From assembly GCA_002010065.2 (NCBI GenBank), contig MTMD02000001.1:1-64000 (forward strand): 64,000 nucleotides of DNA. The letters are read 5' to 3'. Made by a program: the position numbers and the translations under genes. The notes below the pieces were generated by a model. That model was not told the DNA's origin, did no database searches, and saw nothing but the letters and a program-made list of their open reading frames with translations. The first letter of the stretch is position 1. Every line of letters starts with the position of its first letter. The stretch is from Candidatus Pyrohabitans jungbluthii. Lineage in GTDB: Archaea > Hydrothermarchaeota > Hydrothermarchaeia > Hydrothermarchaeales > BMS3B. Of this stretch, positions 39,023-47,511 are shown in pieces.

Positions 39023-39563
39023 GCTTGCGTTTGTAACCAGCAATGAACACAAGTTTAGCGAAGCTGAGGAGATTTTAAAAGGCGTGGCAAGGCTTCGGTG
39101 GAGGCAAGAGAGCTACCGCGAGGTTCAAGCAGAGACGCTTGAAGAGGTGGTAAAGGAGGCGCTCACGGAAATACCCGGCGACAACTTCTTTATTGAGGAT
39201 GCAGGTTTATTCATCCCTGCGCTCAACGGTTTCCCCGGGGTTTACTCCGCCTACGTTTTTAAAACCATTGGAAACGAGGGCATTCTGAGGCTGCTTAAAG
39301 GTGCGGATAACCGGGAGGCAAGCTTCCGGAGCGTCGTGGGGCTAAAGCTTAGAGGCGAGGTGAAGCTCTTCACCGGCGAGGTTCGCGGAAGGATAGCCCT
39401 TGAAGCGAAGGGCAGCGAGGGCTTTGGCTACGATCCTATTTTTATCCCCGGAGGCTACGACAGAACCTTCGCAGAGGATACCCGGCTCAAGCAGAGGGTT
39501 TCGCATCGAAGGCGGGCATTGGAGAAGCTGGCAGCGTACCTGCGAACTACCCACCACTTCTGA
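39012..39563 (+). CDS. XTP/dITP pyrophosphatase (Ham1), apparent CTG start
   Basis: A 183-residue Ham1/ITPase if initiated at CTG 39012. The family's N-terminal substrate motif T-x-N-x-x-K is read only in the frame upstream of the first standard start (GTG 39084): FVTSNEHKFSEAEEIL. GGGAGGT lies 6 nt before the CTG and no ATG, GTG or TTG occurs between the preceding stop and this motif. Other motifs: FFIEDAGLFI, KGSEGFGYDPIF, and HRRRALEKL. It removes non-canonical purine nucleotides. Third gene of the kae1 operon. Confidence 0.85.
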
Positions 39564-39897
39564 AGCTCTCTATTGCAGCGGTGAGATTTTTCGACAGTAT
39601 GCTCACATTCTCAGAGGCGTTGCTCTCAGGGGTTATCTTTTTTATTATGCCTGCCACCGCCTTAAATTTGCTCGCCAGTTTTTCCAGCGCCTCGGATACA
39701 TTCTGCCTGTAGCTTTGCTCCGCCTCTTGGGCGCGCAGCGAATACTGCTCTCCGCTGATCTCGCCCTGAATCCGCGCCCTGAGAAGCTCTGACTGAGTGT
39801 CCACCATTTTGCTTGTGGAGCTCGTTATTGTATACACAACACCGGCGAATAGTGCTGCGATGCCTATAGCAAGAGCCAAATAAGATTTTCCCAGCAT
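39547..39897 (-). CDS. Small membrane-anchored protein of unknown function
   Basis: A 116-residue protein with one N-terminal membrane helix (about 4-25), a coiled-coil region rich in Gln and Glu, and N-glycosylation-type sequons near the C-terminus. It is likely exported and anchored. ATG 39897 (MLGKSYL) or 39909 may be the start. It converges on the XTPase gene with a 17-nt overlap. Confidence 0.6.
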   Translation of the reverse strand: MLGKSYLALAIGIAALFAGVVYTITSSTSKMVDTQSELLRARIQGEISGEQYSLRAQEAEQSYRQNVSEALEKLASKFKAVAGIIKKITPESNASENVSILSKNLTAAIESFRSGG

Positions 39898-40032
39898 GCT
39901 TCCCCTCACAGGCCTGGCCTATAACAATATTTCGTATTATCTTTGTGGTAGGTAATATTAAAAGGTTAGCAAGCACGCTAGGGGGTTCAATTCTGAATCT
40001 ATGATTGCATGGGGTGATAAGAACCTTCGGTC

Positions 40033-40084: not shown

Positions 40085-40101
40085 GTTCATATGTGGTGAA
40101 C
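40085..40101. promoter_or_regulatory. Inverted repeat in the CooS promoter region
   Basis: GTTCA and TGAAC flank 7 nt, about 30 nt upstream of the TATA-like TTATAAATA at 40128-40136. A transcription factor could bind here. GGAGGTG at 40154-40160 serves as the ribosome site. Confidence 0.4.
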
Positions 40102-40164
40102 ATTTTCGGGAAAAAGAATATCTATCATTATAAATAATGACGGTTTCTCAACGGAGGTGTTTAA

Positions 40165-42039
40165 ATGGAAAAGCCAAGTGTGCATGAGACTATAAACGAG
40201 ATGTATCAGAAGGTTAGAGAAGAGGGTATCTCCAACGTGGCTGACCGCTACGAAGCCCAGAGCAAGAAGTGTACCTTCTGTGTTCGTGGGCTTAGCTGTC
40301 AGCTTTGCAGCATGGGACCTTGCAGAATAACTGAGCAGGCTCCTTATGGTGCATGCGGCATCGACGCAAATGGAATAGCCATGCGTAACATGCTCCACAG
40401 GAACATAATGGGCACCGCAGCTTATTCCTATCATGCGGTTGAGGCGGCAAAGACGCTTAAGGCAACAGCCCTAGGCAAGACCCCCTTCAAAATAAACGCG
40501 CCTGAGAAACTCATAGCCTTTGCTCAGGCTCTGGGCATCGAGACAGAGGGCAGGGATATAAACGATGTGGCGGTGGATGTGGCTGACTTTGTTATCGCCG
40601 ATTTAAATCGAGACGCGGACGAGCCCAGCAAGCTTGTGGAAATCTTTGCCCCGGAGCAGAGGAAGAAGCTCTGGAAGGAACTGGGAATCTTCCCGGGCGG
40701 TGTGCTCCACGAGATAATGGTGAACGCAGCCTCAAGCATGACCAACGTGGACAGCAATTACGTCTCCCTGGCTCTTAAAGCGATGAGGATGGGCATAGCC
40801 ACGGCGTTTCAGGCACAGCTCAGCCTTGAGATTATTCAGGACGTGCTCTTTGGCGTACCAAAGCCCCATAAGGGCTACGTCGACCTGGGCATCATAGACC
40901 CGGAGTATGTGAACATCGCTGTAAACGGGCACGAGCCCTTTGTGGGCGCTGCCCTGATTGAGCTCGCCAAAAGCGAGGAGGTGCAGGCAAAAGCAAGGGA
41001 AGCAGGAGCAAAGGGTTTGAAGATAGTGGGCTCCATCGAGACTGGGCAGGAGCTTCTGCAGCGCTACAACGTGGATGACGTGTTTGTGGGCTTGACGGGC
41101 AACTGGATAACCCAGGAGTACGTCCTTGCCACTGGAGCAATAGATGTCTTCGCAATGGACATGAACTGCTCCCTGCCGAACCTGGCTGACTACGCTGAAA
41201 AGTACGGCGTTACGCTTGTGCCGGTGTCCAAGCTGGTGAGAATGAGAGGCGTTGACAAGGGCTTGGACTATAAACCAGAGCTGGTAAAGGAGCAGGCTGA
41301 GGAGCTCATCAACATAGCTATTGAGAACTTCAAAAAGAGGAAGGGCAAGCCCACAAGGGTGCCAAAGCGCAAGCAGGAAGCCATAGTCGGCTTCTCCATA
41401 GAGAGCATCCTCGATGCACTGGGTGGAAGCCTTGACCCGCTGCTGGAAGCCATAAAGAGTGGAGATATTAAGGGCGTCGTTGCCCTGGTGAGCTGCACAA
41501 CACTGAGGAACGGACCCCACGATGAGAACACAGTTACAATAGCAAAAGAGCTGATAAAAAGGGACATACTGGTGCTCAGCATGGGCTGCGGCAACGCCGC
41601 AGTGCAGGTCGCAGGCTTAACCAGCTTAGAGGCTCAGGAGCTCGCGGGTGAGAGACTCAAAAAGGTGCTCAAGGCGCTGAACATCCCGCCAGTGCTCAGC
41701 TTCGGCACGTGCACAGACACCGGCAGGTTGGCGCAGCTTGTCACAGCCCTCGCCAACGCCCTCGGCGTAGACACAGCGCAGCTACCCATAGCGGCAACAG
41801 CGCCAGAGTACATGGAGCAGAAAGCTACAATAGACGCCATCTTCGCTGTCGCTCTCGGAGTTTATACCCACGTCGCCCCGCTGCCCCCTGTAACCGGCGC
41901 TCCCGAGCTTGTGAAGCTTCTAACTGAAGACGTGGAGAGCATCACCGGCGGTAAGCTTGCGCCAGAGTGCGACCCCATTGAAGCTGTGGACTGGATCGAG
42001 AAGCACATAATGAAGCGCAGAGAGGAGCTGGGCATTTAA
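40165..42039 (+). CDS. cooS: CooS-family protein with a substituted C-cluster cysteine
   Basis: A 624-residue protein of the Ni,Fe carbon monoxide dehydrogenase catalytic-subunit family. B/D cluster cysteines occur at the N-terminus (C36, C39, C45, C48, C53, C64). Expected C-cluster ligands found: His256, Cys335, Cys444, Cys475, Cys516, and the conserved Lys553. However the segment normally reading GICCTGNE reads GSIETGQE, so the Fe-binding cysteine is replaced, probably by Glu292. CooS-V of Carboxydothermus hydrogenoformans, which lacks a canonical cluster cysteine, holds an iron-sulfur-oxo cluster and does not oxidise CO but reduces hydroxylamine slowly. No cooF, cooC or acetyl-CoA synthase genes are adjacent. 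Confidence 0.88.
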   Translation: MEKPSVHETINEMYQKVREEGISNVADRYEAQSKKCTFCVRGLSCQLCSMGPCRITEQAPYGACGIDANGIAMRNMLHRNIMGTAAYSYHAVEAAKTLKATALGKTPFKINAPEKLIAFAQALGIETEGRDINDVAVDVADFVIADLNRDADEPSKLVEIFAPEQRKKLWKELGIFPGGVLHEIMVNAASSMTNVDSNYVSLALKAMRMGIATAFQAQLSLEIIQDVLFGVPKPHKGYVDLGIIDPEYVNIAVNGHEPFVGAALIELAKSEEVQAKAREAGAKGLKIVGSIETGQELLQRYNVDDVFVGLTGNWITQEYVLATGAIDVFAMDMNCSLPNLADYAEKYGVTLVPVSKLVRMRGVDKGLDYKPELVKEQAEELINIAIENFKKRKGKPTRVPKRKQEAIVGFSIESILDALGGSLDPLLEAIKSGDIKGVVALVSCTTLRNGPHDENTVTIAKELIKRDILVLSMGCGNAAVQVAGLTSLEAQELAGERLKKVLKALNIPPVLSFGTCTDTGRLAQLVTALANALGVDTAQLPIAATAPEYMEQKATIDAIFAVALGVYTHVAPLPPVTGAPELVKLLTEDVESITGGKLAPECDPIEAVDWIEKHIMKRREELGI

Positions 42040-42065: not shown

Positions 42066-42299
42066 AGTCAGGTGGTAGGATTTTTCTCTTCGAATTAAAT
42101 TTCTTCTGAATCAGTATTCAACTCAAAATCAGCCTCTTAAAATAGTCAATTGGTACATCGGTGTCAGTTTCATTGCTTTTCAGCCTTAGATTTTCTTCAG
42201 GTTTTTTATCGCCTTGCTCAGGGGGAGAATTAATAACTTAAATTCTACAATATTATGGTTTATACTAGCAACCTCAAGGGGCGCACTGGAGGTTTTAGA

Positions 42300-43913
42300 A
42301 TGATCCTCAGGGGCAATATCGTGGACGTGAAGAGGGGTGAAGTATATGCCGGAGAGGTGGTTTTTGAGGGAGGAGTTATCAGAGAGGTGCGCGAGACCAG
42401 AGGAGAGTTCTCCAGCTACATTCTTCCCGGGCTGATTGATGCGCACATCCACATAGAGAGCAGCATGCTCGTGCCCAGCCGCTTCGCTGAGGTGGCGGCA
42501 ACGCACGGCACTGTCGCTGTCGTTGCTGATCCCCATGAGATAGCCAACGTTCTCGGCATCGCAGGCATTGAGTACATGATACGCGACGCCTCTCATGTGC
42601 CGCTGAAGTTTTACTTCACCGCCCCCTCGTGCGTGCCTGCAACGCCTTTTGAAACCTCCGGCGCCAGGCTGGGCGTAGAAGAGGTTGCCTCGCTGCTCGC
42701 CCGAGAGGAGATTGTCGCCCTTGGAGAGGTGATGAACTATCCGGGTGTAGTTGCCCGCGACCCTGAGGTAATGGCCAAGCTGAATGCCACTAAGAAGCTG
42801 GGCAAACCCATAGACGGCCACTGCCCAGGACTTAGAGGCGAAGCACTGCGCAGCTATGTGGAGGCTGGGATAAGCACAGAGCACGAGTGCACATCGCTGG
42901 AAGAGGCGGAGGAAAAGGCAAAGCTCGGGATGAAGATAATGCTCCGCGAGGGCAGCAGCGCAAAAAACCTTAAAGCACTGGCTCGCTTCAAAGGTGAGGC
43001 TTTTCTTGTGAGCGACGACGTCCATGCCAAAGACCTGCTCCGCGGGCATGTGAATTACCTGCTCAGGCGAGCGGTTGAAGAGGGAATGGACGAGGTTGAG
43101 GCTGTGAGGAGGGCATCGCTTTACCCTGCAAAGCACTACCGCTTAAACGTGGGGATGCTGCGCGAGGGCGATACCGCTGACATCGTCGTGGTTCGCGACC
43201 TGCGCAGCTTCACCTGCATAGAGTGCTACATCAACGGCACCCTCGTGGCGGCGCGGGGAAAGGCGCTCTTCGAAGCTTCACCGCTTGAAGGCGAGAATAC
43301 AGTAAAGGCAAGCCTTAAATCTCCTGAGGACTTCCGAATACAGGCGAAAAAAGCTAGCCCAAAGGTTAGGGTGATAAGGGTTGTACCCGGGGAGATAGTC
43401 ACCGACGTTGAGATTGCCGAAATTCCCGGGAGAGAGATTAAAGCCATGCCTGAGCGGGACATTCTCAAGCTTGCGGTGGTGGAGCGCTACGGTGGCAATG
43501 GCGTTGCAACTGCACTGGTTAAAGGCTTCGGGTTGAAGAAAGGAGCCATAGCCTCGAGCATCGCTCACGACTCCCACAACATAATCGCCGTTGCCGCTAC
43601 CGATGAGGACCTGGCGGAGGCAGTGAATCAGGTTATACGCATGCACGGCGGCATTGCTGTTGTTGCGCATGGAGAAGTGCTCGCATCGCTGGCGCTGCCC
43701 ATCGCAGGATTAATGAGCCCTGAGCCTGCTCAGCAGGTGGCTGAGAGGATGGAGAAGCTCAACCAGGCAGCACGTAGCCTTGGCTGCACCCTCGAAGCAC
43801 CGATAATGGCGCTTTCCTTCCTGGCGCTGCCCGTGATACCAAAGCTGAAGCTCACCGATCGCGGTCTCTTCGACGTGGAGAGATTCGAGTTCGTGGAGCT
43901 GGAGGTGCAGTAA
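42300..43913 (+). CDS. ade: Adenine deaminase
   Basis: A 537-residue amidohydrolase: PGLIDAHIHIESSML, ADPHEIANVLGI, DGHCPGLRG, TEHECTS, and SDDVHAKDLLRGH. It deaminates adenine to hypoxanthine in purine salvage. ATG 42300 has GGAGG 7-10 nt upstream; the frame extends to 42255 but lacks homology there. Preceding 260 nt hold AT-rich promoter sequence and a TGAAT-CAGT-ATTCA palindrome at about 42108-42121. Confidence 0.93.
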   Translation: MILRGNIVDVKRGEVYAGEVVFEGGVIREVRETRGEFSSYILPGLIDAHIHIESSMLVPSRFAEVAATHGTVAVVADPHEIANVLGIAGIEYMIRDASHVPLKFYFTAPSCVPATPFETSGARLGVEEVASLLAREEIVALGEVMNYPGVVARDPEVMAKLNATKKLGKPIDGHCPGLRGEALRSYVEAGISTEHECTSLEEAEEKAKLGMKIMLREGSSAKNLKALARFKGEAFLVSDDVHAKDLLRGHVNYLLRRAVEEGMDEVEAVRRASLYPAKHYRLNVGMLREGDTADIVVVRDLRSFTCIECYINGTLVAARGKALFEASPLEGENTVKASLKSPEDFRIQAKKASPKVRVIRVVPGEIVTDVEIAEIPGREIKAMPERDILKLAVVERYGGNGVATALVKGFGLKKGAIASSIAHDSHNIIAVAATDEDLAEAVNQVIRMHGGIAVVAHGEVLASLALPIAGLMSPEPAQQVAERMEKLNQAARSLGCTLEAPIMALSFLALPVIPKLKLTDRGLFDVERFEFVELEVQ

Positions 43914-45414: not shown

Positions 45415-45639
45415 ATGGGCACGAAAACTATATCTCTCTCCGAGGAAGCCTACAGATTGCTGAAAGAGGCAAAACTTCCAGGCGAAAGCTTTTCGGATGT
45501 TGTGAAGAGGATGATTAAAAAGAGGCCTCTATCAAGTTTTGCTGGCTTATGGGCGGAGCTGGAAGATGAGAAGATAGAAGAAATTAAAAAATTAATCAAA
45601 ATTGAAAGGGAGATTTCTGATAAAAAATGGGGGTACTGA
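45415..45639 (+). CDS. vapB: VapB-type antitoxin
   Basis: A 74-residue antitoxin of the DUF217 type: KTISLSEEAYRLLKEAKLPGESFSDVVKR at the start forms a ribbon-helix-helix-like DNA-binding part, followed by a charged tail that would block the toxin. The toxin gene begins 3 nt after the stop, the usual toxin-antitoxin arrangement. Confidence 0.87.
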   Translation: MGTKTISLSEEAYRLLKEAKLPGESFSDVVKRMIKKRPLSSFAGLWAELEDEKIEEIKKLIKIEREISDKKWGY

Positions 45640-45642
45640 ATT

Positions 45643-46029
45643 GTGGTGGTTCTTGAAACTGACTTCCTAATAGATCTTCTCAAAGGTGAGGAGTATGCTG
45701 TAACCAAAGCCAGAGAAATTGACGAATCTGGAGAACCAAAATTCGTCACGCCTGTTTCAGCCACAGAGTTTCTCATTGGTGCCCACTATATTGGTGGTAA
45801 ATATCTTAAAGCCGCCATGGAACTTTTGTCTTCACTTGAAATCCTTGAGTTTGACTTGGAAGCATGTTATGTGGCTGGTGAAATAGGCGCCACTCTTGCA
45901 AAAGAGGGCAAGCACATAGGTGTAGCAGATACCATGATCGCGGGCATAGTAAAGAGACATGGAGAAAAGCTGCTCACGAGAGATGAGAATTACTCGCGAG
46001 TTAAAGGGCTCGTGGTGGAGAGGTATTAA
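45643..46029 (+). CDS. vapC: VapC toxin, PIN-domain ribonuclease
   Basis: A 128-residue PIN protein with GTG start at 45643. Acidic residues at LETDFLIDLL, SATEFLIGA and VADTMIAGI, plus a C-terminal LLTRDENYSRV, form the metal site. VapC toxins cut RNA such as tRNA when freed from VapB. The pair probably stabilises the local accessory region. Confidence 0.9.
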   Translation: MVVLETDFLIDLLKGEEYAVTKAREIDESGEPKFVTPVSATEFLIGAHYIGGKYLKAAMELLSSLEILEFDLEACYVAGEIGATLAKEGKHIGVADTMIAGIVKRHGEKLLTRDENYSRVKGLVVERY

Positions 46030-46232: not shown

Positions 46233-46709
46233 GTGAGCATAACACAAAAATTGGCTATTCTATATGCTATCCTTATAACTCTCGGCACCGCAGGTGCGCA
46301 GATGATGGGAGGCTATGGAGAAGGCGGCTATTACGGAATGATGGGCGCTCCCGGTTATGGGTTTGAGCCCAACACAAGTTACTACTCCTATCGGGGCTAT
46401 CAAACCTATCCCTACGGGTATGGTGGTATGCCCATGGGTGGTTATGGTATGATGGGCGGTATGATGCCAATGATGGGTGGCTATGGTGGTTATGGAATGA
46501 TGGGAGCTTATCCGGGCTATGGGATGGGCTACTCTGGTGGCTGGTTCCTGCTGCTTCTTCTCATAGCCGTGGCAGCGGTTCTAATTTACTACGCAAGGGG
46601 TAAAGAAGCAGCCCCTTCGAGTGCAAAAGATATCCTGGACATGAGGCTGGCTAAAGGCGAGATAACCCAGGAGGAGTACCAGAAGCTCAGAGAGGTGATT
46701 GAGGGATGA
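46233..46709 (+). CDS. Met/Gly/Tyr-rich membrane protein with SHOCT domain
   Basis: A 158-residue protein with GTG start behind AAAGGAGGTGGG. A signal-like segment (about 6-23) is followed by repeats built from MMGG, GGYG and GMMG up to about residue 100, then one membrane helix (about 103-121) and a C-terminal SHOCT motif (AKDILDMRLAKGEITQEEYQKL, split around residue 145). The Met-rich part would lie outside the cell and could bind Cu(I) or another soft metal (inference). The next gene overlaps by 4 nt (ATGA). First gene of a three-gene cassette. Confidence 0.75.
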   Translation: MSITQKLAILYAILITLGTAGAQMMGGYGEGGYYGMMGAPGYGFEPNTSYYSYRGYQTYPYGYGGMPMGGYGMMGGMMPMMGGYGGYGMMGAYPGYGMGYSGGWFLLLLLIAVAAVLIYYARGKEAAPSSAKDILDMRLAKGEITQEEYQKLREVIEG

Positions 46710-47272
46710 AAAAGGGCATCGCAATAATAATCGCAGCGGTTCTCGTATTCCTCGCTATTGGCTTGTACAACCAGTACTCATACTACAGGGCGGCTCCATT
46801 CTATGGCGGTGGAGGGATGATGATGGGCACACCTTATCCGGGGGCACAGCCCGGCTATGTGCAGCCAGCGCCGCAGATACAGTTCTCCTCAAACGGTGAG
46901 ATGATCTATTATACTGGCGTCAACAAGAGGGGAGAGCGTATTGTGCCCAGGTTCGGTGGACCCATGTGGCTCTATATGCACGGCGGAAGCTGTGTATCCT
47001 GCCACGGTGAGGACGGCAGAGGTGGCAAGCCAGTGATGATGTGCTCTGAGGTTCCGCCGGACATAAGGTACAGTGCGCTAACCAGCGAGGAGATGGAGCA
47101 CGAAGAGGGCGAAGAGCACCCGCCCTATAACGAGACCACGATAAAGCGGGCAATAACTCAGGGTTTAAACCCCGCCGGCGAAGAGCTTGATCCGTGCATG
47201 CCCAGATGGGCAATAAGCGAGAATGACCTGAACGACTTAATTCTCTTCCTTAAGGAGCTTGACAGGAGGTGA
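46706..47272 (+). CDS. Membrane-anchored monoheme cytochrome c
   Basis: A 188-residue protein with one N-terminal membrane helix (about 4-22), a short Gly/Met/Pro-rich linker, then a cytochrome c domain: the heme site CVSCH (Cys96, Cys99, His100), a likely Met ligand in CMPRW (Met165) and helix ENDLNDLILFLKEL. Cys113 and Cys164 might form a disulfide. It would carry electrons outside the membrane. c-type cytochromes need a heme-lyase system not present in the window. Confidence 0.83.
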   Translation: MKKGIAIIIAAVLVFLAIGLYNQYSYYRAAPFYGGGGMMMGTPYPGAQPGYVQPAPQIQFSSNGEMIYYTGVNKRGERIVPRFGGPMWLYMHGGSCVSCHGEDGRGGKPVMMCSEVPPDIRYSALTSEEMEHEEGEEHPPYNETTIKRAITQGLNPAGEELDPCMPRWAISENDLNDLILFLKELDRR

Positions 47273-47277
47273 ATAAT

Positions 47278-47511
47278 ATGGCGACGAAAAACGATAAGCT
47301 TGTGGCTGGAATTATCCTGACGGTGGTTGGCTTGCTTGGTCTCAGCTCAGGCGGAATGATGGGCTATGCAGGCATGGGCGGCATGATGGGTGGCTACGGG
47401 ATGATGGGCGGCTACGGCATGGGCTTTGGGTTCTTCCCACTGCTGATCAGTGCGGTATTTCTGGGCATAACTCTATTCGGGGTCTACCTGATATACGAGG
47501 CAGTGAAGTGA
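47278..47511 (+). CDS. Small Met/Gly-rich membrane protein
   Basis: A 77-residue protein with ATG after AGGAGGTGAATA. Membrane helices at about 8-24 and 52-73 enclose a GMMGGYGMMGGYG loop, the same motif as in the first gene of the cassette. Function unknown; the shared composition suggests a common complex or metal site with the two preceding genes. Confidence 0.7.
   Translation: MATKNDKLVAGIILTVVGLLGLSSGGMMGYAGMGGMMGGYGMMGGYGMGFGFFPLLISAVFLGITLFGVYLIYEAVK

Follow-up and report, generated by a model that had tools for sequence, protein, structure and literature searches.

The window analysed here, a stretch of 64,000 nucleotides from the hot-vent archaeon Candidatus Pyrohabitans jungbluthii, contains on its forward strand (positions 40165–42039) a gene for a protein of 624 amino acids that open reading frame, profile, structure-match and tree evidence assign to CooS-V, structural group D-1. 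The protein scores 866 bits against TIGR01702, the model for the CO dehydrogenase catalytic subunit, and will be annotated automatically as CooS because this exceeds the cut-off of 478. By family match, its neighbours are housekeeping genes encoding a Ham1 NTP pyrophosphatase upstream (39084–39563, forward strand) and adenine deaminase downstream (42255–43913, forward strand). Also upstream is a divergent gene for a 120-amino acid hypothetical protein without a family (39550–39909, reverse strand) which, on comparison of neighbours, is conserved within the genus only; synteny around the cooS gene is likewise held within the genus only. As the original prediction had it, maturation and electron-transfer genes are not adjacent: no neighbour resembles CooC, CooJ, CooT or CooF. 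Nor was such a partner found anywhere in the window. Elsewhere in the window, three consecutive genes (46233–47511) encode a cytochrome c-like protein between two small Gly/Met-rich membrane proteins, and a PIN-domain protein (45643–46029) follows a small ORF (45415–45636) in an arrangement resembling a VapBC-type toxin–antitoxin pair.

Alignment of the window protein with CODH-II, CODH-IV, a Thermococcus CODH, CooS-V and an HCP ('hydroxylamine reductase') places Glu292 (codon GAG, 41038–41040), part of the motif GSIETGQE (41026–41049, forward strand), on the cluster-C ligand Cys295. The canonical motif is GICCTGNE, and the adjacent cysteine is lost as well, with Ile291 aligned on Cys294 of CODH. 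None of the 11 cysteines of the protein (residues 36, 39, 45, 48, 53, 64, 335, 444, 475, 516 and 602) lies near Glu292, so that none can replace Cys295, and the substitution that first drew attention to the gene is confirmed. Nor is it a sequencing or assembly error, since glutamate is shared by each D-1 relative whose sequence extends over this position and purifying selection on the gene is strong (dN/dS of 0.056–0.062 against near relatives).

It had also been claimed that all other ligands stay. This holds for His256 (40930–40932), Cys335, Cys444 (41494–41496), Cys475 (41587–41589) and Cys516 (41710–41712), the last aligned with the persulfide-forming Cys521 of CooS-V, but further residues of the site are altered (all on the forward strand). 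Relative to CODH, Gln is replaced by Asn334, His/Ser/Thr by Glu551, the acid–base His93 by Tyr87 (40423–40425, in agreement with the D-1 row of Table 2 in PMC6344411) and Gly by Cys39, and all of these changes match CooS-V. Asn334–Cys335 (41164–41169) aligns with Asn337–Cys338 of CooS-V, the asparagine being present in HCP too, whilst Glu551 (41815–41817) aligns with Glu556 of CooS-V and Glu494 of Desulfovibrio vulgaris HCP, the second carboxylate of the hybrid cluster. Glu551 stands two residues ahead of Lys553, in which Lys563 of CODH is kept. Towards the N-terminus, a CxxC formed by Cys36 and Cys39 (40270–40281; Cys38 and Cys41 of CooS-V) aligns as a bridging D-cluster of type III, and Cys45, Cys48, Cys53 and Cys64 (40297–40356) make up the B-cluster [4Fe–4S] motif, aligned with C47x2C50x4C55x12C68 of 7b7q. 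Glu292, Asn334 and Glu551 are common to all D-1 relatives covering these sites, the same three residues occur in HCP, and the D-1 residue set as a whole is fully conserved across two domains, bacteria and archaea. The canonical CODH set of five cysteines and one histidine at cluster C is incomplete in the window protein.

Sequence, fold and phylogeny agree on the family to which the protein belongs. Its best sequence match in the PDB is CooS-V (7b7q, 806 bits; runner-up 471). An AlphaFold model built from 28 aligned sequences (pLDDT 90.4; single-sequence folding gave a pLDDT of 42 and was discarded) had 7b9a/7b7q as its top Foldseek matches (TM 0.98, 59% identity, 1.2 Å), with true CODHs at TM 0.95–0.96. 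In a maximum-likelihood tree, a quick tree with some long branches, a branch with SH-aLRT 95 set apart all 49 Glu-type sequences from bacteria and archaea along with CooS-V, and another (SH-aLRT 100) the ten Cys-type enzymes. A 96% identical orthologue is found in Ca. Pyrohabitans JdFR-17 (Hydrothermarchaeota), and the residue row is that of structural group D-1 of Inoue 2019 (PMC6344411). The proposed membership of CooS-V therefore stands, with one clade, the closest sequence and fold and the full residue signature in its favour, and with neither grouping inside the true CODH clades nor another cysteine in range. Judged on these comparisons, the window protein is a member of the known CooS-V family, orthologous to Carboxydothermus CooS-V.

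Likenesses and differences can be set out in the same terms. The window protein is the same as CooS-V (PDB 7B7Q, 7B7T, 7B95, 7B97 and 7B9A) in fold, clade and all ligand and signature residues, and it shares with group D-1 the type III D-cluster, the H-E-C-C-C-C row, the tyrosine, the lysine and the HCP-like glutamate, without differing in any feature tested (PMC6344411). With HCP it has in common the residue set His/Glu/Asn/Cys/Cys/Cys/Cys/Glu but lies outside that family, scoring 48.9 bits against TIGR01703 (cut-off 360.8) and being distant in the tree. Canonical Ni,Fe-CODHs, such as CODH-II and the paralogue in the same genome (G000:C15:98916), share its fold, B-cluster and five of six cluster-C ligands, yet are only ~35–40% identical and differ at the Cys295 to Glu, His93 to Tyr, Gln to Asn and His/Ser/Thr to Glu positions.

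Two variants among the relatives bear on how this site may have arisen. The CooS proteins of L163 (G051:C27:83332, Methanoperedens BLZ2) and L164 (G099:C3:80912) have Cys or Asp at position 295 and lack the CxxC, and already possess Asn337, Glu556 and Tyr93; the HCP-like second-shell residues may thus be older than the Cys to Glu change. A Glu295-type protein at L132 (G188:C9) has Gly for Cys in its bridging-cluster motif, and the glutamate and the bridging-cluster cysteine are therefore not strictly linked.

What is known of CooS-V comes from the Carboxydothermus hydrogenoformans protein, which has no activity with CO or CO2 and contains no Ni (PMC9311411). It carries an Fe–S–O hybrid cluster that rearranges on reduction, with a substrate channel open only in the reduced state. 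Hydroxylamine is turned over slowly, with a kcat of 0.13 per s and a kcat/KM of 20 where a true CODH has 450, and no NO reduction was detected. Its potentials are ~300 mV below those of HCP, from which its authors infer a different physiological function (PMC9311411), and the oxidised cluster also differs from that of HCP. By homology to this tested protein, 59% identical, the window protein is probably not a CO dehydrogenase despite its automatic annotation, as had been suggested, the lack of CO activity being carried over from the homologue. From the crystal structure of the same homologue, an Fe–S–O hybrid cluster without Ni would be expected at the site with Glu292, Glu551 and Asn334.

The host genome also encodes a canonical CooS (GICCTGNE, 40% identical to the window protein) and a CdhA-like protein. 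This paralogue (contig C15, L169:7908-9854) is flanked by genes for a ferritin-like protein and an HGD-D (2-hydroxyacyl-CoA dehydratase-like) protein, with a BadF-type ATPase nearby; no adjacent CooC or CooF was seen on that contig. No HCP was detected in the genome. C. hydrogenoformans, by contrast, has HCP in addition to CooS-V, and the host of the window gene is an archaeon.

The first clue to function comes from the promoter. Comparison of D-1 promoters identified a conserved site, TGAACATTTTCGGG (40097–40110, forward strand), 68 bp before the ATG and followed by an A-rich stretch that is probably BRE/TATA-like. At a threshold of at least 11 of 14 matches, a site of this type is present 46–89 bp upstream in all nine Hydrothermarchaeia D-1 promoters and in eight of ten that we call Archaeoglobi-like from one named locus (L040) and tree position, shuffled sequences giving ~0.1. 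Its conservation extends across genera that have different genes further upstream. No such site was found at D-1 loci of Methanoperedens (0/15), bacteria (0/13) or methanogens (0/9), and in ANME D-1 promoters there is a weaker resemblance, with 1/10 reaching the threshold.

Seven copies of the strict palindrome CGAAMATKTTCG were counted in the host genome, where the reversed control had 0, and over ten genomes of the family the counts were 36 for the palindrome and 5 for the control. A pattern search placed the seven sites at G000:C2:274135, C2:377318, C2:400096, C5:13706, C8:285385, C8:355832 and C13:18491; most lie 39–60 bp ahead of a gene, one being without a clear gene. The genes concerned encode a cupin, an HTH_10 regulator, a Zn-ribbon protein, a NapH-like Fe–S membrane protein with a GNAT protein, a MIP18-type Fe–S assembly protein with a CofC-like protein, and LeuD with a CGGC protein on the opposite side. 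The cupin is the same protein that was found as a relative of the D-1-linked cupin described below, and the gene for the HTH_10 regulator is preceded by a strict site of its own (C2:377318). A site with one mismatch stands ahead of a nitrite/sulfite-reductase-like protein, and sister genomes add a COX1/NnrS-like protein, cytochrome b and ferredoxin to this putative regulon. That the HTH_10 protein binds the D-1 promoter site would be our guess.

The strict core, CGAACATGTTCG, agrees in every letter with the motif that lies 66–69 bp ahead of the ATG in the nos and nor promoters of Haloferax mediterranei (PMC10062603). In haloarchaea this motif, CGAAYATDKTYG, precedes the nitric- and nitrous-oxide reductase genes, and mutations in it lower promoter activity (PMC10062603). 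It lies 66–79 bp before the ATG there, compared with 68 bp for the window site, and is also found on a bacterioopsin-activator-like regulator gene, as in the present genome. The window site matches CGAAYATDKTYG at 11 of 12 positions, full strict matches occurring at other genes of the host and at the orthologue in G001. The mismatch is a T at position 1, where the G001 orthologue has C; T at this position was the most activity-lowering change in one haloarchaeal promoter (PMC10062603). NarO, the known regulator of bacterioopsin-activator-like type in H. volcanii, has been described as sensing oxygen (PMC11218638). The motif may accordingly be a sign of anoxia and not of nitrosative stress, and in haloarchaea the matching motif goes with anoxic denitrification rather than with stress as such (PMC10062603).

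A second clue is provided by gene company in the relatives. Genes for rubrerythrin, an FprA-type flavodiiron protein and the catalytic chain of ferredoxin–thioredoxin reductase (FTR) lie directly upstream, on the same strand, at 7–8 ANME/Methanosarcinales D-1 loci, and the one-strand set rubrerythrin–flavodiiron–FTR–CooS-V was observed at L039, L042, L043, L044, L045, L048, L051 and L053. In three ANME/Methanoperedens loci, a multihaem (PF13447) protein is encoded directly downstream. A cupin is found within ~1 kb at 10 of 74 D-1 loci, in Methanoperedens, Methanomethylicota, methanogens and Desulfurobacterium (Fisher p = 0.013 against pooled controls, shared ancestry being ignored). Cupin and FTR/flavodiiron company is thus seen at a minority of D-1 loci only. 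The same search at HCP genes of the same phylum, with query proteins taken from both D-1 and HCP loci, found cupin at 10/20, FTR at 4/20 and flavodiiron-like proteins at 2/20; the D-1-derived cupin alone matched 8/20. None of these neighbours was found at 21 canonical CooS loci or at 20 random places.

Might CooS-V-type proteins and HCP exclude one another? HCP is found in none of the 48 D-1 genomes nearest to the window protein (in contrast to the literature, where clade D is said to co-occur most with HCP) and is often present in more distant methanogen D-1 carriers. In Hydrothermarchaeia the counts favoured D-1/HCP exclusion (HCP in 0/13 versus 4/10; Fisher p = 0.024). Across 392 genomes of the phylum of Methanoperedens, however, HCP was present in 38 of 98 with D-1 and 90 of 294 without (p = 0.14), and mutual exclusion was rejected as a general rule; the pattern is one of lineage.

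Taken together, the promoter site and the HCP-shared neighbours fit an HCP-like low-potential reductase under anoxic or N-oxide-linked control, and a hybrid-cluster enzyme of CooS-V type with this role is, in our judgement, the probable explanation overall. The gene would encode a homodimeric CooS-V-type enzyme (Ni-CODH clade D, structural group D-1) in which ferredoxin or another such carrier would deliver electrons by way of the bridging [2Fe–2S] cluster and the B-cluster [4Fe–4S] to a low-potential hybrid cluster. Once reduced, the cluster would open the substrate channel and a small N- or O-containing oxidant would be reduced, as by HCP. The solitary gene would probably be controlled through a CGAAcATgTTCG-type site and a NarO/Bat-like HTH_10 regulator, together with the cupin, an Fe–S carrier and redox proteins, giving expression in anoxic or N-oxide-linked growth and a role in detoxification or repair. 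The suggestion of nitrosative or oxidative stress defence made in the original prediction thereby gains circumstantial support from the promoter site, the putative regulon and the HCP-shared neighbours, whilst the slow reaction of CooS-V with hydroxylamine and its undetected NO reduction speak against it. Against the HCP-like reading as a whole stand also the potentials ~300 mV below those of HCP, the housekeeping neighbours and genus-level synteny of the window gene, the small share of D-1 loci with cupin or FTR/flavodiiron company, and the T at position 1 of the window site.

The alternative that survives best, though we think it unlikely, is a reductase expressed in anoxia, with no part in stress, whose low-potential substrate would belong to the anaerobic metabolism of C1 compounds, S or N. 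Potentials ~300 mV below those of HCP (PMC9311411) would suit such an enzyme, as would a motif that in haloarchaea marks anoxic respiration, with NarO sensing O2 (PMC10062603, PMC11218638), a putative regulon including nitrite/sulfite-reductase-like and NapH-like proteins and, in a sister genome, ferredoxin, and the multihaem protein directly downstream in ANME/Methanoperedens. It is the HCP-shared neighbours and the rubrerythrin/flavodiiron set that favour detoxification instead. Less probable still is a redox sensor or regulatory protein whose low-potential morphing cluster reports redox state without turning over a substrate. The gene is solitary, the only substrate found for CooS-V is turned over slowly, the potentials of that protein are very negative (PMC9311411), and clade D co-occurs with active CODHs, an auxiliary or redox role having been proposed for it without proof (PMC13056359). 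The protein has no signalling domain and no fixed partner, however, a redox-gated channel with an HCP-like active site suits a reductase, and the neighbours in relatives are detoxification enzymes.

Very little can be said for a working Ni,Fe-CODH with unusual ligands and Glu in place of Cys295. The TIGR01702 equivalog match, the CODH-like fold and the remaining His and Cys ligands would be in keeping with it, but the orthologous CooS-V is inactive and Ni-free, and the C295A and C295E variants of CODH-II are Ni-deficient and inactive (PMC9311411). Tyr87 replaces the acid–base histidine, Glu551 and Asn334 are as in HCP, no Ni maturation gene is adjacent and the genome encodes a canonical CooS elsewhere, as well as a CdhA-like protein; this reading was rejected on residues and clade. 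That the gene is a degenerate CODH paralogue without function, as a lost ligand and the absence of adjacent partner genes might suggest, is least credible of all, being contradicted by purifying selection, a new residue set fully conserved in two domains and a conserved promoter site.

Returning to the HCP-like reductase, a broader proposal, more tentative than the reductase role itself, is that lineages lacking HCP have its archaeal counterpart in CooS-V-type proteins. These would be a second, convergent kind of hybrid-cluster enzymes that share HCP helper genes (cupin, FTR, flavodiiron) and, in Hydrothermarchaeota and Archaeoglobi, belong to an ancient HTH_10 regulon with the haloarchaeal denitrification site.

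Clade D remained functionally unassigned in a survey of CODH neighbourhoods from 2026, which reported no informative operon for it and found experimental proof of a stress role to be missing (PMC13056359). Within the literature searched, the evidence on function presented here, namely the promoter site, the putative regulon and the company shared with HCP, is new, and it is circumstantial. Published carboxydotrophy in Hydrothermarchaeota, moreover, rests largely on cooS (PMC6775978). In at least two of the genomes searched, both Hydrothermarchaeia (G019, locus L104, and G021, locus L105), the Glu-type protein is the sole TIGR01702 match, and carboxydotrophy should not be inferred from cooS alone in cases such as these. 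Promoter site, putative regulon and HCP-shared company together bring the in vivo role of clade D within reach of testing in cultivable archaea, with Archaeoglobus, Methanosarcina and reporters in Haloferax as the systems at hand.
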